The notes under the pieces were generated by a model that was given only the letters and a program-made list of their open reading frames with translations, was not told the origin of the DNA and made no database searches. A program made the translations under genes and the position numbers. 64,000 nt of DNA from Modestobacter altitudinis (GTDB lineage: Bacteria; Actinomycetota; Actinomycetes; Mycobacteriales; Geodermatophilaceae), in the NCBI RefSeq assembly GCF_005930475.1, contig NZ_SJEW01000012.1:1-64000 (forward strand), in the 5' to 3' direction. Below are positions 3,781 through 63,931 of the stretch, in pieces (position 1 is the stretch's first letter; every line of letters begins with the position of its first letter).

Positions 3781-4494
3781 ATGGCCGACCTGACCGCCCT
3801 GCACGAGGCCCTTTCCCGCGTTGTCCTCGTCGACCGGGACCTGGGCGACGCGTTGTGCGAGATCACCGAGATCGGCCGCCGGGCGATCCCAGGCTCAGAA
3901 AGTGCTTCAGTCACCCTCATCGGCGGCGGGAAGCCGCGCACCGCCGCGTTCCAGGGCCAGCTGGCGGTCGACGCCGAGGAACTGCAGTACGGGCTGGGCC
4001 ATGGTCCGTGCCTGGACGCCGGCCGCGCCGGCCTGGTCTTCCTCGTCTCGGACATGGGGACCGAGCAGCGTTGGCCCGACTACGCCGCGCCGGTGGTCGA
4101 ATGTGGTGTCCGGAGTTCCCTGACGGTCCCGCTCCCCTTCCTAGGAGCCACCATTGGGGCGCTGAACCACTACGCCACCCGGCCGGCCGCTTTTGACGAG
4201 GACGACGTGGCCCGCGGTGAGGAGATGGCTGGCTTCATCGCGGTCGCCGTGGCGAACGCTCAGCACAGCGCCCAGTCAGCCGAGGAGGCCGAGAACATGC
4301 GTCGCGCCATGGTGTCCCGGGCGATGATCGAGCAGGCCAAGGGCATCCTCATGGAACGGCACAAGATGACCGCCGATGCGGCCTTCACGGTGCTGTCGCA
4401 CGCATCTCAGAACAACAACCTCAAGCTTCGTGAGGTGGCCGATCACCTGGTCACGACAGGGGAGGTTCTGGGCCCCGTGCAGGGCGGCGCATAG
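3781..4494 (+). CDS. GAF-ANTAR antiterminator protein
   Basis: A 237-residue cytoplasmic sensor-regulator. Residues about 15-165 form a GAF domain with the landmark LGHGPCLDAGRAG and a predicted ligand pocket. Residues about 170-230 are an ANTAR domain (AMIEQAKGILMERHKMTADA, then LREVADHLV), which in characterised proteins binds paired hairpins in nascent RNA to prevent termination. The start has AGGGAAG a suitable distance upstream. It is closely similar over its whole length to the frameshifted gene at 9388-10079, which lies in inverted orientation, so the two are probably duplicates. The GAF ligand and RNA targets cannot be inferred from sequence. Confidence 0.9.
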   Translation: MADLTALHEALSRVVLVDRDLGDALCEITEIGRRAIPGSESASVTLIGGGKPRTAAFQGQLAVDAEELQYGLGHGPCLDAGRAGLVFLVSDMGTEQRWPDYAAPVVECGVRSSLTVPLPFLGATIGALNHYATRPAAFDEDDVARGEEMAGFIAVAVANAQHSAQSAEEAENMRRAMVSRAMIEQAKGILMERHKMTADAAFTVLSHASQNNNLKLREVADHLVTTGEVLGPVQGGA

Positions 4495-45376: not shown

Positions 45377-46765
45377 ATGAGCACGACCTCTCCGGCCCGC
45401 CGCGCGCGGGCCCGGCTGGGCCGGTTGACCGCGCTGCTGGCCGTCGTGCTGGTCACCGTGGTCGGCCTCGGCGCGCCGAGCGCCTCGGCGACCGCGTACC
45501 CCTCGCCGGCCGGCGGGACGCGCCAGGTGATCGGCTCGATCCTCACCCACTACCAGGCCCTCGGGGGCCCCGGTGGCGTGCTGGGCGGGCCGCTCACCGA
45601 CGAGCTGGCGACGCCGTCGCGGTACGGCCGGTACAACCACTTCGCCGCAGGGTCGGTGTACTGGTCGCCGGCCACGGGTGCGTGGTCGGTCGTCGGCGCC
45701 ATCCGCGACCGGTGGGCATGGCTCGGCTGGGAGGCCGGGCCGCTGGGCTACCCGATCACCGACGAGGGCATGACGCAGGGCGGCCGCGGGCGGTACGAGC
45801 TGTTCCAGGGCGGGGCCGTCTACTGGTCGCCCGGCACCGGCGCACACCAGGTCGGTGGCTCGATCTTCGGTCGGTACGACGCGCTGGGCCGGGAGGGCTC
45901 GGTCCTCGGCCTGCCGACCACCGACGAACTGAGCACCCCCAACGGGCTCGGCCGGTACAACCACTTCCAGGGCGGCTCGGTCTACTGGTCGCCGGCCAGC
46001 GGGGCACACGGCGTGTACGGCGCCATCCGCGACCGCTGGGCCGCGGCAGGCTGGGAGAGCTCGGCTCTCGGGTTCCCGGTCAGCGACGAGTACGCCGTCC
46101 CCGGGGGGCGGGCGCAGGACTTCCAGCGCGGTTCGATCAGCTGGACCCCGACGGGCGGCACCGTCGTCGGCGGCGCGACGCTGCCGCTGGGCGTCACGCC
46201 GCCCGGCAACCAGGTGATCACCGTGGTGGCGCCCTCGGCCGGCTCCAGCACCGCCACGGTCACCGCGTGGCAGCGCGGCCCGGGTGGCTGGTCCGCCGTC
46301 CTCGGCCCGGTGCCGGCCCGGGTCGGCAGTGCCGGGGTGGGCGCGGCCAGCGAGTCGTCGACCCGGACCCCGGCCGGCACGTTCTCCCTCACCACGGCGT
46401 TCGGGCGGGCCGGCAACCCGGGGACGGCGCTGCCCTACCGGGTGGTCGACCGGTCCGACTGGTGGGTGTCCGACACCGGCAGCCCGCTGTACAACGCCCC
46501 TGCGCGGTGCGCGCCGGGCACCTGCCCGTTCGACGAGCGGGCGGGGGAGAACCTGTACGCGGCCGGCGCCGTCTACGACAACGCGGTGGTCATCGACTAC
46601 AACCGCGCCCCGGTCGTCCGCGGCGCCGGGTCGGCGTTCTTCCTGCACATCTCCAACGGCGGGGCCACCGCCGGCTGCGTGGCCGTCGACCGCGGCGTCC
46701 TGCAGCAGCTGATGCGCTGGCTGGACCCGAACGCCGCCCCGGTGATCAGCATCGGCGTCGGCTGA
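45377..46765 (+). CDS. LGFP-repeat L,D-transpeptidase
   Basis: A 462-residue exported protein. Basic N-terminus then LTALLAVVLVTVVGLGAPSA gives a signal peptide. Residues about 50-260 hold four LGFP-like repeats (for example LGWEAGPLGYPITDE and AGWESSALGFPVSDE), a cell-wall-binding module. The C-terminal YkuD-type domain has FFLHISNGGATAGCVAVDRG with catalytic histidine and cysteine. It should form 3-3 peptidoglycan crosslinks or attach proteins. GGGAGCGA precedes ATG 45377. Stop is convergent with the next gene by 9 bp. Confidence 0.9.
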   Translation: MSTTSPARRARARLGRLTALLAVVLVTVVGLGAPSASATAYPSPAGGTRQVIGSILTHYQALGGPGGVLGGPLTDELATPSRYGRYNHFAAGSVYWSPATGAWSVVGAIRDRWAWLGWEAGPLGYPITDEGMTQGGRGRYELFQGGAVYWSPGTGAHQVGGSIFGRYDALGREGSVLGLPTTDELSTPNGLGRYNHFQGGSVYWSPASGAHGVYGAIRDRWAAAGWESSALGFPVSDEYAVPGGRAQDFQRGSISWTPTGGTVVGGATLPLGVTPPGNQVITVVAPSAGSSTATVTAWQRGPGGWSAVLGPVPARVGSAGVGAASESSTRTPAGTFSLTTAFGRAGNPGTALPYRVVDRSDWWVSDTGSPLYNAPARCAPGTCPFDERAGENLYAAGAVYDNAVVIDYNRAPVVRGAGSAFFLHISNGGATAGCVAVDRGVLQQLMRWLDPNAAPVISIGVG

Positions 46766-57991: not shown

Positions 57992-58312
57992 GGGTCCTCC
58001 TCGCGGCCTCCGGCAGCAGGGCGCTGCGCGGGCGGTGCAGCGCAGGACCAGGAGCAGGGTGGCCCGGCGGCGGCTCCCCCGGTCGACCGACCGACGGGGG
58101 GACCCTGACCGCGCCGACCCGGGGGATCGGACGCAGGCTGCGCACATGGTGGCCGAACGGTCCCCGCTCGGCCAGCCGACCCAGCGGACCGGCCGCTCGC
58201 GAGCAGCGCACCGCCGGGATCGGTCGTCCGCGCTCACGCCTGCGGGCACCGCGCCGCGACGCGGCGCGGGGTGGACGCGCGTGGCGGGCGATCGGGTGGC
58301 AAGCTCCCGATC
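57992..58312. other. Gap before formate dehydrogenase operon
   Basis: About 320 bp between the divergent small protein gene and fdhA. It should contain the fdh operon promoter, but no clear -35/-10 was assigned. No tRNA or coding region is seen. The dyad at 58289-58313 is its last part. Confidence 0.4.
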
Positions 58313-58313
58313 G
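58289..58313 (+). promoter_or_regulatory. 8-bp inverted repeat at fdhA start
   Basis: CGATCGGG (58289-58296) is the perfect complement of CCCGATCG (58306-58313), separated by 9 nt. Its last base is the first base of the GTG start. It could be an operator dyad or an mRNA hairpin that limits access to the start codon; the purine-rich GGTGGCAAG lies across the 5' arm and loop. Confidence 0.55.
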
Positions 58314-61300
58314 TGAAGACGTGGCTCGACTCCTGGCCGGTGTTCCGGCAGCTCACCGGCGCGGACCCGCTCGGCCGGGGGGTGGCTGCGCGCAGCAAGG
58401 CCACCGAGCAGGTGGTCAGCCGGACGGCGACCGCCGACCGGGTCGTGAAGTCCGTCTGCCCGTACTGCGCGGTCGGCTGCGCCCAGCGCGTGTTCGTCAA
58501 GGACGAGAAGATCGTCCAGATCGAGGGCGACCCGGACTCACCGATCAGCCGCGGCCGGCTCTGCCCCAAGGGCAGCGCGAGCAAGCAGTTGGTCACCAGC
58601 CCGACCCGGGTCACCACGGTCAGGTACCGCCGTCCGTACGCCACGGACTGGGAGGACCTGGACCTCGACACGGCGATGGAGATGATCGCCGACCGCGTCC
58701 TGGAGGCCCGCGAGAAGGGCTGGCAGGTCGAGGACGAGGGCAAGCGGGTCAACCGCACCATGGGCCTGGCCAGCCTGGGCGGCGCGACGCTGGACAACGA
58801 AGAGAACTACCTGATGAAGAAGCTGTACAGCGCCCTGGGCGCGATACAGATCGAGAACCAGGCCCGCATATAGCACTCTTCGACGGTCCCCGGTCTGGGG
58901 ACCTCGTTCGGCCGTGGTGGCGCGACCAACTTCCAGGAAGACCTGGCGAACTCCGACTGCATCGTCATCGAGGGTTCGAACATGGCCGAGTGCCATCCGG
59001 TGGGCTTCCAGTGGGTGATGGAGGCCAAGGCCCGGGGGGCCAAGGTCATCCACATCGACCCGCGGTTCACCCGGACCAGCGCGGTCGCCGACCTGCACGT
59101 CCCGCTGCGCATGGGCACCGACATCGCGTTCCTCGGTGGGCTGATCCGGTACGTCCTGGACAACGACCTGTACTTCAAGGAGTACGTGGTCGCCTACACC
59201 AACGCCGCGGCGCTGGTCGGCGAGGAGTTCGTCGACACCGAGGACCTCGGCGGCCTGTTCTCCGGCTTCGACCCTGAGCACGGCCACTACGACACCGGCA
59301 GCTGGGCGTATGAGTTCGCCGACGAGCCGCACTCCGGCGCCGACGACCCGCAGGGGTCCGCCGAGCAGGAGGCCGTCGGCGACGACCACGACGTCAAGTC
59401 CGCCGACCAGGCGCAGTCGCTGGGCAGCGGTGGGGCGTCCATCCCGGCCAAGCCCCTGCGGGACGAGACGCTGCAGCACCCGCGCAGCGTGTTCCAGGTG
59501 CTCAAGCGGCACTTCGCCCGCTACACCCCGGAGATGGTGGCCGAGGTCTGCGGCATCGAGCCGGAGGTCTTCGAGCAGGTCGCGAAGTGGGTCACCAGCA
59601 ACAGCGGCCGCGAGCGGACGACGGCGTGGGTCTACTCCGTGGGCTGGACGCAGCACAGCGTCGGCGCGCAGTACATCCGCAGCTGCTCGATCCTGCAGAC
59701 GCTGCTGGGCAACATCGGCCGGCCCGGTGGCGGGATCCTGGCGCTGCGCGGGCACGCCAGCATCCAGGGCTCGACCGACGTCCCGACGCTGTACAACCTG
59801 CTGCCCGGCTACCTGCCGATGCCGCACGCCGCCCAGCACTCCACGGTCGACGAGTACGTGGCCGACGCCGCCGGCAAGGCGGGCTTCTGGGGCAACAAAC
59901 GCGCGTACACCGTCAGCCTGCTCAAGGCCTGGTTCGGCGATGCGGCGAGTGCGGAGAACGACTTCCGGTTCGACTGGATCCCCAAGATCAACGGCGACCA
60001 CAGCTCCTACCGGACGATCGCGGACATGATCGCCGGGAAGGTGCACGGCTACTTCCTGGTCGGCGAGAACCCCTCGGTCGGGCACCCCAACGGCAAGATG
60101 AACCGGTTCGGGCTGGCCAACCTGGACTGGCTGGTCGTCCGTGACCTGCAGATGATCGAGTCGGCGACCTTCTGGAAGGAGGGCCCGGAGATCGAGTCCG
60201 GCGAGATGGCGCCGGAGACGATCGGCACCGAGGTCTTCTTCATGCCGGCGGCGACGCACACGGAGAAGGAAGGCACCTTCACCCAGACGCAGCGGGTGCT
60301 GCAGTGGCGGCACAAGGCGGTCGAGCCGCCGGCCGACGCCCGCAGCGACCTGTGGTTCTACTTCCACCTGGGCCGCATCCTGCGGAAGCGGCTGGCCGGG
60401 TCAACGGACCCACGCGACCAGGCGCTGCTGAACCTGACCTGGGACTACCCGACGATCGGGGAGACCGCCGACCCCGACGCGGCGGCGGTGCTGCGCGAGA
60501 TCAACGGCGTGGGTCCCGACGGCAGGGCGGTCAACGGGTACCTCGAGCTCAAGGACGACGGGTCGACCAGCAGCGGGTGCTGGATCTACTCCGGTGTCTA
60601 CGCCGACGAGGTCAACCAGGCCGCGCGGCGCAAGCCGCGTCGCGAGCAGGGCCCGGTCGCGCTGGAGTGGGGCTGGGCCTGGCCGCTCAACCGCCGCATC
60701 CTCTACAACCGTGCCTCCGCCGACCCCGACGGCAAGCCGTGGAGCGAGCGCAAGAAGTACGTGTACTGGGACGAGGCCGCCGGGAAGTGGACCGGTGACG
60801 ACGTGCCGGACTTCGAGGCGGACAAGCGGCCGGACTACGTGCCGCCGGAGGGTGCCCGGGCGCAGGCCGCGATCGGCGGGGCGGACCCGTTCATCATGCA
60901 GATGGACGGCAAGGCCTGGCTGTACGCACCGTCCGGTCTGGTCGACGGTCCGATGCCGACGCACTACGAGCCGGCCGAGTCGGTCGTGGAGAACTTCCTC
61001 TACGACCAGCAGTCCAGCCCGACGATCGAGCGCATCGCCGGGCCGTGGAACCGGGAGAACCCCTCGCTCAGCGAGGTCTTCCCGTTCCAGGTGACCACCT
61101 ACCGGCTCACCGAGCACCACACCGCCGGTGGGATGAGCCGCACGCTGCCCTACCTGTCCGAGCTCCAGCCGGAGTTCTTCGTCGAGGTCAGCCCGGAGCT
61201 GGCGCAGCTGCGCGGTCTGGTCAACGGCGAGTTCGCCACGCTGGTCAGCGCCCGGACGGCGATCGAGGCGAAGGTGCTGGTCACCGAGCGGATCCGGCCG

Positions 61301-61606
61301 GTCAAGCTGCGCGGCGGGCAGGTGGTGCACCAGATCGGCATGCCCTACCACTGGTCCTACAGCGGGCTGTCCACCGGCGACAACGCCAACGACCTGCTGG
61401 GCATCGTGCTGGACGCGAACACCCACATCCAGGAGGACAAGGTCAGCACCGCCGACATCGTCCCCGGACGCCGTCCGCGCGGGCCGGAGCTGCTGGAGTT
61501 CGTCGAGTCCTACCGGACCCGAGCCGGGGTCGGGTCGGGGAAGGTCGGCGTCAACGGCCGGGCACCGGACCAGGACCCGAGCGCGATCGAGGAGACCGGC
61601 GCATGA
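58313..61606 (+). CDS. fdhA: Formate dehydrogenase alpha, UAG-selenocysteine
   Basis: A 1097-residue molybdopterin oxidoreductase that oxidises formate. A [4Fe-4S] site, VCPYCAVGC and CPKG (Cys49, 52, 56, 84), is followed by the active site at residue 187. There, between QARI and HSSTVPGLGTSFGRGG, where this family has selenocysteine or cysteine followed by histidine, the codon is TAG (58871-58873). The frame continues without shift or further stop to 61606. A hairpin with loop GGTCT begins 11 nt after the TAG, as in E. coli fdhF. UAG-encoded selenocysteine in FDH is reported for Geodermatophilus and Blastococcus. No twin-arginine signal is visible. GTG 58313; automatic callers will split this gene. 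Confidence 0.9.
58871..58903 (+). promoter_or_regulatory. UAG codon plus SECIS-like hairpin
   Basis: TAG at 58871-58873 is followed by an 11-nt spacer and a perfect 7-bp stem GGTCCCC (58885-58891) / GGGGACC (58897-58903) with loop GGTCT (58892-58896). In E. coli fdhF the UGA is likewise followed by 11 nt, a 7-nt 5' arm and a GGTCT loop recognised by SelB (from memory). The GGTCTG codons encode Gly-Leu at the same place in both proteins. E. coli has a bulged U that is not evident here. Confidence 0.82.
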
Positions 61607-62676
61607 CCACTGTCAGCTCAGCGAGCCCGGGTCTCAGCAAGGACACCGGCGTCGTCTCGGGGAACCGGCTGTACGGGCCACTGCCCGACGTCCAGGGTGA
61701 GGCGGGGTACGAGACCGACCACCCGGCGCGGGTCGGGTTCTTCACCGACACGTCGGTCTGCATCGGGTGCAAGGCCTGCGAGGTGGCCTGCAAGGAGTGG
61801 AACACGCTCCCGATGGACGACTCGCACGGCACGAAGGACGCCATGGGGCTGTCCGGCATGTCCTACGACAACACCGGCCAGCTCGGCGCGAACTCGTGGC
61901 GGCACGTGGCGTTCATCGAGCAGAGCCGCGCCGTCGACCTCCCGATGCCGGTGTTCGGCCGGCCGGGCGATGACCGGCAGGACATCGGGCAGCCGGTCAA
62001 CCCGATCACCCCGACGGCCGACAGCACGCTGAACGCGCAGACCAGCGTGCTCAACGCCGAAGCGCTGAGCGAGTTCGACCCGCAGACCGGGCAGAGCGGC
62101 AGCGACAAGCAGATCCGCTGGCTGATGTCCTCCGACGTCTGCAAGCACTGCACGCACGCCGGCTGCCTGGACGTCTGCCCGACCGGTGCGCTGTTCCGCA
62201 CCGAGTTCGGCACCGTCGTCGTCCAGGGCGACATCTGCAACGGCTGCGGCTACTGCGTGCCCGCCTGCCCCTACGGCGTCATCGACAAGCGCGAGGACGA
62301 CGGCCGGGTCTTCAAGTGCACGATGTGCTACGACCGGCTGACCGACGGGCTGCAGCCGGCCTGCGCCACCGCCTGCCCGACCCAGTCGATCCAGTTCGGC
62401 GACCTCGACGAGCTGCAGGCCCGGGCCGACGCCCGGCTCGCGACGCTCAAGGGGCAGGGCGTGGAGACGGCGCGGCTCTACGGCCGGGACGAGGCCGACG
62501 GCGTCGGTGGCGTCGGCGCCTTCTTCCTGCTGCTCGACGAGCCCGAGGTCTACGGCTTCCCGCCGGACCCGATCGTCACCACCCGCGACCTGCCGTCGAT
62601 GTGGAGGGCCGCGGCGACCGGCGCGGCGGTCATCGTCGGCGTCGTCGCCTCGGCCTTCGTGGGGCGCAAGCGATGA
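61603..62676 (+). CDS. fdhB: Formate dehydrogenase iron-sulfur subunit
   Basis: A 357-residue electron-transfer subunit with four [4Fe-4S] cysteine groups: CIGCKACEVACKEWN, CKHCTHAGCLDVCPTGAL, CNGCGYCVPACPYG and CTMCYDRL with CATACPTQSI. A C-terminal hydrophobic helix (AAATGAAVIVGVVASAFV) anchors it in the membrane. It takes electrons from FdhA to the NrfD-like subunit. ATG 61603 overlaps the fdhA stop as ATGA. Confidence 0.93.
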   Translation: MTTVSSASPGLSKDTGVVSGNRLYGPLPDVQGEAGYETDHPARVGFFTDTSVCIGCKACEVACKEWNTLPMDDSHGTKDAMGLSGMSYDNTGQLGANSWRHVAFIEQSRAVDLPMPVFGRPGDDRQDIGQPVNPITPTADSTLNAQTSVLNAEALSEFDPQTGQSGSDKQIRWLMSSDVCKHCTHAGCLDVCPTGALFRTEFGTVVVQGDICNGCGYCVPACPYGVIDKREDDGRVFKCTMCYDRLTDGLQPACATACPTQSIQFGDLDELQARADARLATLKGQGVETARLYGRDEADGVGGVGAFFLLLDEPEVYGFPPDPIVTTRDLPSMWRAAATGAAVIVGVVASAFVGRKR

Positions 62677-62762: not shown

Positions 62763-63931
62763 GCGAGCAGCCGACGAGCGGGAACGAGCCGGCCGGTGAG
62801 GCGCCGCTGACACCCGGCGCCGGCTGGCACCGGGCCGGCGGGGAGGACCTCACCAAGCCGCGGCGCAAGCGCCGCCGCGGTGGTGGCGGCTGGGGAAGTG
62901 GTAACCGCGAGGCGGCCATGGTGCCGGACGCGGAGTTCAGCTCCTACTACGGCCGGCAGATCATCAAGTCGCCGACCTGGAAGAACCCCGAGGTCCCGAT
63001 CTACTTCTTTATGGGGGGCGCGGCCGGCACCTCGTCGGTGATCGCCGCGCTGGCGGAGTTCACCGGCCGGCCGAAGCTCGCCCGCAACGCTGAGTACGCC
63101 GCGGGGGTCGGTGCGCTGGCCTCGGTCGTGCTGCTGATCGACGACCTCGGCCGGCCGGAGCGGTTCCTGCACATGCTGCGGGTGTTCAAGCCGACGTCGC
63201 CGCTGTCGGTGGGCTCCTACATCCTGTCGCCGTTCAGCGCGCTGGCCTCCGCGGCGGCCGCGGTGCGGCTGCTGGACCTGAAGCCGGTGTACGGCCTGGC
63301 CACCCGGGTGCTGCCGTTCCTGCCGTCGATCTCGGGTGCGTTCCCGGTGCTGCGCAAGGCCTCGGCGGTGGGCGCGGCTGCGTTCGGCGGGCCGATGGCG
63401 ACCTACACCGCGGTGCTGATCGCGAACACCGCCGTCCCGTCGTGGCACGCGCCGTACGACGAGCTGCCGTTCGTGTTCGCCGGGTCGGCGATGGCCGCCG
63501 GCGGTGGCGTCACCATGGCGCTGACCCCGGTCGACGAGGCCGGGCCGTCGCGCAAGGTGGCGCTGACCGGCGTGGCCCTCGAGCTCGCGGCGATGCACCG
63601 GGTCGAGCACGGGCACGGCATCGTCAGTGAGCCGTACTCCATCGGCAAGGCCGGGAAGCTGCTCCGGGCGGCCAAGACGGCGACCGTGAGCGGGGCCGGG
63701 GTGACCGCGCTGCTCGGCCGGACCCGGGCCGGCTCGGTGGTCGGCGGCGTGCTGCTGGCGACCGGTTCGCTGCTGACCCGGATGGGCGTGTTCGAGGCCG
63801 GCATGGCCAGCGCCAAGGACCCGAAGTACACGGTGATCCCGCAGCGTGCGCGGCTCGAGGCCCGTCAGGCCGAGGCCGCTGCCCGGGCCGGCACCGACGA
63901 CCCGCACGAGGCGAAGTCCGTCGTCCGCTGA
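62759..63931 (+). CDS. nrfD: NrfD-like membrane quinone subunit
   Basis: A 390-residue polysulfide-reductase NrfD-family protein. After a basic, glycine-rich 60-residue N-terminus, IYFFMGGAAGTSSVIAALAE opens the membrane region of about eight segments, with LLIDDLGRPERFLHMLRVFK the family's conserved DLGRP motif that lies near the quinone site. It passes formate electrons to menaquinone. GTG 62759 overlaps the micro-ORF stop. Third gene of the fdh operon. Confidence 0.9.
   Translation: MSEQPTSGNEPAGEAPLTPGAGWHRAGGEDLTKPRRKRRRGGGGWGSGNREAAMVPDAEFSSYYGRQIIKSPTWKNPEVPIYFFMGGAAGTSSVIAALAEFTGRPKLARNAEYAAGVGALASVVLLIDDLGRPERFLHMLRVFKPTSPLSVGSYILSPFSALASAAAAVRLLDLKPVYGLATRVLPFLPSISGAFPVLRKASAVGAAAFGGPMATYTAVLIANTAVPSWHAPYDELPFVFAGSAMAAGGGVTMALTPVDEAGPSRKVALTGVALELAAMHRVEHGHGIVSEPYSIGKAGKLLRAAKTATVSGAGVTALLGRTRAGSVVGGVLLATGSLLTRMGVFEAGMASAKDPKYTVIPQRARLEARQAEAAARAGTDDPHEAKSVVR

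Follow-up and report, generated by a model that had tools for sequence, protein, structure and literature searches.

Introduction

Mukai and colleagues (2016) reportedly used 75Se labelling or mass spectrometry to confirm that UAG, rather than UGA, serves as a codon for selenocysteine (Sec) in Geodermatophilus and Blastococcus. For the family Geodermatophilaceae, the available parts of the Secmarker paper describe a tRNA-Sec with the anticodon CUA, UAG in formate dehydrogenase (FDH) and, for the AhpC of Blastococcus saxobsidens, a bSECIS located 3′ of the codon (PMC5330540). UAG is mentioned as a natural Sec codon in the accessible portions of two further papers (PMC10778597; PMC8124441), natural Sec is discussed with UGA only in the accessible portion of a 2026 review (PMC13188914), and an excerpted table row places Geodermatophilus obscurus in a pyrrolysine survey (PMC3639795). 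In the literature searched we found no paper on a Modestobacter selenoprotein.

Here we analyse a formate dehydrogenase gene, fdhA, in a stretch of 64,000 nucleotides from Modestobacter altitudinis (G000:C33:1-64000, hereafter the window), which belongs to a genome of 5.18 Mb in 161 contigs that is 99.5% complete. A preliminary description of the window had proposed that the gene uses UAG for Sec and is one of the cases already reported for this family, and the latter agrees with the parts of PMC5330540 on Geodermatophilaceae that are available. We compare the locus with its relatives in the family and beyond, and conclude that fdhA is almost certainly a selenoprotein gene in which Sec is encoded by UAG, an interpretation supported at the level of sequence by the tRNA, the sel genes and a covarying hairpin.

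Results

An in-frame UAG at the selenocysteine site

The features of the locus are collected in Table 1. Translation of fdhA over 1098 residues confirms that a single TAG is the only internal stop, flanked by IENQARI on one side and HSSTVPGLG on the other; the terminal stop is TGA and the remaining 1096 codons are open, with G or C at 96% of third positions. The start is provisional, the frame being open from a GTG at 58271. On the profile NF041513 (formate_DH_Act) the part before the TAG matches positions 2-185 (338.5 bits) and the part after it positions 187-1066, which leaves position 186 for the TAG; the downstream part alone scores 1535.1 bits, above the cut-off of 1400. In an alignment with E. 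coli FdnG (1kqf_A), the upstream part ends at residue 195 and the downstream part starts at residue 197. Residue 196 of FdnG is, we take it, Sec, and the TAG thus lies at the Sec residue of a selenoprotein family, where the preliminary description had placed it. Annotation had also been expected to split the gene, and this held as far as the mechanical open reading frame list (table 11) is concerned, in which fdhA appears as 58271-58873 and 58982-61606. The start of fdhB overlaps the stop of fdhA as ATGA (61603-61606).

Table 1. Features of the fdhA locus, in window coordinates
Feature	Position	Strand	Remarks
fdhA, formate dehydrogenase alpha subunit	58313..61606	+	one in-frame TAG (predicted Sec); 1098 codons including both stops
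ATA codon	58868..58870	+	directly 5′ of TAG
TAG codon, predicted to be read as Sec	58871..58873	+	residue 187 counted from 58313; Sec-site alignment, family conservation
SECIS-type hairpin (predicted)	58885..58903	+	7-bp stem, 58885-58891 with 58897-58903; loop GGUCU, 58892-58896
fdhB, iron-sulphur beta subunit	61603..62676	+	Fer4_11 86 bits (cut-off 26.2); TIGR01582 171.8 bits, below cut-off 334.7
NrfD-type membrane subunit, start provisional	62843..63931	+	PF03916 55.4 bits (cut-off 25.8); without NCBIfam match

A covarying hairpin just 3′ of the codon

A SECIS-type hairpin is predicted just downstream of the UAG from the fold and from compensatory changes; it begins 12 bases past the codon, with 11 bases between the TAG and the stem. 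Across 54 distinct UAG sequences, 98.7% of cells are paired in the true register, against 30-59% for versions slid along the sequence. Three of the seven stem pairs are altered on both sides, and one pair is seen as CG, GU, GC and UA. None of 500 shuffles matched the observed percentage paired, the number of cells changed on both sides or the covariation score, whilst the two weaker of the five measures, pairs changed on both sides and further pair types, were reached by 7 and 57 of the 500, respectively. The folding energy is unremarkable for a sequence so rich in GC (z -1.40, -1.97 and -1.04 over three spans), and support from the consensus fold is limited to the apical hairpin and does not extend to a longer SECIS. 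The same hairpin is present in 32 distinct copies of the gene that carry UGA (95.5% paired), and codon +7, which lies in the loop, is GGT in 102 of 103 UAG copies.

Decoding machinery

Two matches to the tRNA-Sec model in this genome exceed the gathering score of 47 bits. The stronger one, at G000:C128:104909-105000, matches the Rfam tRNA-Sec over its full length (66.9 bits), and its anticodon loop, CTCTAAA, holds the anticodon CTA. The other (48.7 bits, C33:357-444) is a tRNA-Ser(tga). Genes for SelA (TIGR00474, 416.9 bits, cut-off 267.9) and SelB (TIGR00475, 271.2 bits, cut-off 242.25, profile positions 2-338 of 581) lie 3′ of the CUA gene on the same strand, and selD (TIGR00476, 378.3 bits, cut-off 125), by eye the Cys form, adjoins it in divergent orientation. 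The genome-wide searches for tRNA-Sec CUA and for selA, selB and selD that the preliminary description had called for were thus successful throughout.

UAG retains its ordinary meaning elsewhere. The release factor RF1 is present (472.5 bits, cut-off 423.25), and the four TAG-ended genes that had been named as examples out of at least six, at 4494, 7477, 19423 and 38868, all have Pfam domains above cut-offs (GAF/ANTAR, SpoIIE, GGDEF and enoyl-CoA hydratase, respectively). Decoding of UAG in this genome therefore appears to depend on context, as was originally suggested.

The program ARAGORN labels the CUA gene as tRNA-Pyl, which would favour pyrrolysine at the UAG, or decoding by an ordinary amber suppressor. 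We consider this exceedingly improbable, given that the gene matches the Rfam tRNA-Sec over its full length, that the UCA tRNA-Sec genes of related genomes (genus labels g6-g8) are close to it in sequence, that the UAG occupies the Sec site of FDH and that the four UAG-ended genes checked are normal. In addition, PylS (TIGR02367) gave no match in the genome at an E value of 0.001, in a search whose control rose above the cut-off in 1 of 14 genomes. A further ARAGORN call, a tRNA-Ala(ggc) of 91 bases at 45410-45500 of the window, is without an Rfam match at gathering scores and is thus probably spurious.

Distribution in the family and beyond

When 112 genomes of the family were searched with exact flanking patterns, TAG was found at the fdhA site in 98 and TGN in none. 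A tRNA-Sec was matched in 108, and the 110 matched genes comprise 102 with the anticodon CUA and eight with UCA. Codon and anticodon go together: a CUA gene is present in 101 of the 108 genomes with tRNA-Sec, and 96 of these also have the TAG. Of the five that do not, four are incomplete assemblies and one is G080, in whose copies the stretch concerned is missing. UCA genes are confined to seven genomes of the genus labels g6, g7 and g8, plus G059, where one occurs alongside a CUA gene. The 14 genomes without TAG are nine of g6-g8, four that are incomplete (G034, with its fdhA copy cut at a contig end, G035, G094 and G096) and G080. At an E value of 1e-40, the nine g6-g8 genomes (G067-G075), seven of which have tRNA-Sec UCA, yielded no relative of this FdhA. 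Despite the TAG, tRNA-Sec was not found in G097 and G098, assemblies that are 72% and 80% complete. In G080 (genus label g9), the stretch that would hold the Sec codon and hairpin is missing from both fdhA copies (L277 on C12 and L278 on C4), which are shifted in frame there, and tRNA-Sec CUA is present; double loss at one spot suggests assembly drop-out at the hairpin, or a real loss.

These data bear on two further explanations of the UAG. If fdhA were a pseudogene, or the sequence in error, the TAG would be a true stop and the enzyme dead or split. The frame does end at 58873 under table 11, and G080 provides two copies without the Sec-codon stretch, but 98 of 112 genomes have TAG at this codon, which makes a sequencing error very unlikely; protein identity downstream of the TAG is 69-77% in five scored matches from other genomes, the hairpin covaries, and all other codons are open. 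With such conservation this explanation has hardly any probability left. Alternatively, the UAG might be read at low efficiency as some other residue by a near-cognate tRNA, without SelB, giving a partly active enzyme. The bases flanking the codon, A before and C after, are of a kind thought to weaken termination and so lend this some plausibility; it is nonetheless very improbable in view of the agreement between tRNA anticodon and codon across the family, the conserved hairpin and the retention of the sel genes. UAG read as Sec remains by far the best account of the gene.

Outside the family, the TGA form of the site pattern was found in 86 of 394 genomes of the class; 34 such places were read and 33 accepted as fdhA (L195 was dropped). 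A scan of 84,980 species genomes for TAG or TAA at the site returned 107 stretches. UAA was rejected as a Sec codon at this site: the 101 stretches that are fdhA all have TAG, and the remaining six (L052, L079, L083, L088, L093 and L104) are unrelated. All but three of the fdhA records are named as Geodermatophilus, Blastococcus, Modestobacter, Klenkia, Goekera, Trujillonella or ‘Geodermatophilaceae bacterium’. Two of the three coincide in place with genomes of the family, a ‘Frankiales’ MAG (L039) with G061 and ‘Bacillus sp. AZ43’ (L095) with G030. The third, a Marmoricola MAG contig (L092) without a match to the family genomes, may be misbinned. L052, L057 (cut at a contig end), L088 and L093 were dropped from the UAG counts; L079, L083 and L104 carry TAA and had no place in that set to begin with. 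Among the 103 UAG copies counted are that of the window and those of L267 and L276, of which L267 repeats L099 and L276 repeats L064.

The codon preceding the UAG

In counts that are not independent, because the copies share ancestry, every one of the 103 copies read, two of them repeats of others, has ATA directly 5′ of the UAG; elsewhere in the same reading frames, ATA accounts for only 72 of the 3523 Ile codons (2%). The third base of this codon is A in all 79 distinct UAG rows. Before UGA, in the 33 copies read and subject to the same shared ancestry, the codon is ATT in 18, ATA in 14 and GTT in one, and never ATC, the codon that accounts for 927 of 969 Ile codons elsewhere in those frames. 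From codon -12 to codon +19, the UAG copies have just two codons without a G or C at the third position in any copy, the one preceding the UAG and loop codon +7. A separate oddity is Arg codon +14 (58913-58915 in the window), for which 84 of 103 UAG copies have CGT, an uncommon choice in such GC-rich genes; CGC is dominant at this position in the UGA relatives (24 of 33).

Two explanations for the constant AUA fared poorly. A role in a lower SECIS stem found no support, as swapping the codon in silico barely lowers the predicted hairpin probability: for 84 distinct UAG sequences this is 0.414 with the natural codon, 0.431 with AUC, 0.425 with AUU, 0.401 with AUG and 0.390 with GUC, and for 33 UGA sequences 0.481 with the natural codon and 0.591 with AUC. 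The third base of AUA is, moreover, unpaired in the consensus fold; the base with which it might pair, at the third position of codon +14, is T in only 66 of the 79 distinct rows. Pausing at a rare tRNA is weakened by the use of AUU (18 of 33) and GUU (one) besides AUA (14) in the UGA relatives.

Codons such as AUA, AUU and GUU are expected to be read through a non-Watson-Crick pair at the wobble position. We tentatively suggest that the recoding signal may have an upstream part outside the hairpin, such that the codon occupying the P site during reading of the UAG would have to end in A or U, and that, as a joint and equally tentative proposal, the choice could have been narrowed to AUA when the group moved from UGA to UAG. 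Such a non-Watson-Crick wobble pair at the P-site codon might slow RF1 or favour SelB. A narrow literature search found no report of an upstream context rule for Sec codons.

Two types of tRNA-Sec

Among the tRNA-Sec sequences compared, the closing pair of the anticodon stem is C-G in those with CUA and U-A in those with UCA. Of 36 stretches given for a SelA tree, 27 had a SelA match (the exceptions are L124, L126, L127, L130, L133, L143, L149, L154 and L155), and omission of L125 (from the genome of L157) and L268 (from the genome of L135) left 25 rows. A single branch with support 100/100 divides the 22 CUA rows from the three UCA rows, in a tree that is unrooted and covers three of the seven UCA-only genomes. 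The split fits a single codon change within the family, as judged from these sequences.

G059 carries both types, the CUA gene on C11 (L156) and a UCA gene at G059:C17:1173-1263 on the minus strand (L154/L124). The latter differs in its middle part and lies in a contig stretch with open reading frames that look transposase-like by eye. The search for a neighbouring selenoprotein found three hairpin candidates in 40 kb of that contig, none of them convincing by eye, and the one candidate in L157 of G071 was similarly unconvincing. G059 could read two Sec codons, or the extra UCA gene could be a stray mobile gene.

Other candidate UAG-Sec genes in this genome

The search for further UAG-Sec genes covered the GGUCUGG-type loop, AhpC/TSA and UGSC. 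UAG followed by 12-22 bases and GGUCUGG occurs at 26 places in the genome, compared with 117 for the pattern read backwards, so the UAG-loop pattern is not enriched, and among these places only fdhA has a stem of at least six pairs (seven; the next are five and four). All eight AhpC/TSA matches in the genome are without an inside stop. UGSC gave no match in the genome, and since the control genomes were likewise without a match this is no evidence of absence.

Discussion

By analogy with the known bacterial Sec pathway, serine-charged tRNA-Sec CUA would be converted to Sec-tRNA by SelA using selenophosphate from SelD, and SelB would bring the Sec-tRNA to the ribosome and bind the hairpin 12 bases past the codon. 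With SelB bound there, we propose, the fdhA UAG would be read as Sec in competition with RF1, and UAGs without the hairpin would still terminate proteins.

The gene, with a full set of decoding machinery, is a clean example of Sec probably encoded by a stop codon that is not UGA and that still serves as a stop elsewhere. Such genes are easily missed, as the open reading frame list ends fdhA early and ARAGORN reports a tRNA-Pyl. The map of the family, with TAG in 98 of 112 genomes and UCA tRNA-Sec in g6-g8, forms a natural series in which to study a change of Sec codon, and the constant AUA beside the UAG points to a context rule that can be tested.

The FdhA described here is homologous to E. 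coli FdnG (1kqf) and to the Sec-containing FDH alpha subunits 6sdr, 8cm4 and others, but distant from them in sequence; in FdnG, the TAG takes the place of the one residue that separates the matches of the two FdhA parts. In all of these enzymes Sec is presumably encoded by UGA. Closer relatives are the UGA-Sec FDHs of other Actinomycetes (NF041513), which share the site, its flanking residues, the position of the hairpin and a loop of the GGUCU or AGUCU type, but have UGA preceded by AUU (18), AUA (14) or GUU (1) in 33 copies, where the UAG genes have AUA only. The closest described system is that of the Geodermatophilaceae themselves, which, as far as the available parts of PMC5330540 go, is alike in family, in tRNA-Sec CUA, in the UAG within FDH and in a hairpin 3′ of the codon, described there for the AhpC of B. 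saxobsidens. The present case differs in coming from a further genome (genus label g1), in which FdhA is the only such protein found and AhpC is without an inside stop. UAG-Sec is thus already known for the family and this fdhA is a clean further case of it; to this we add a map of the Sec codon across the family, the AUA rule, a division into CUA and UCA groups, and one genome that has tRNA-Sec genes of both kinds.
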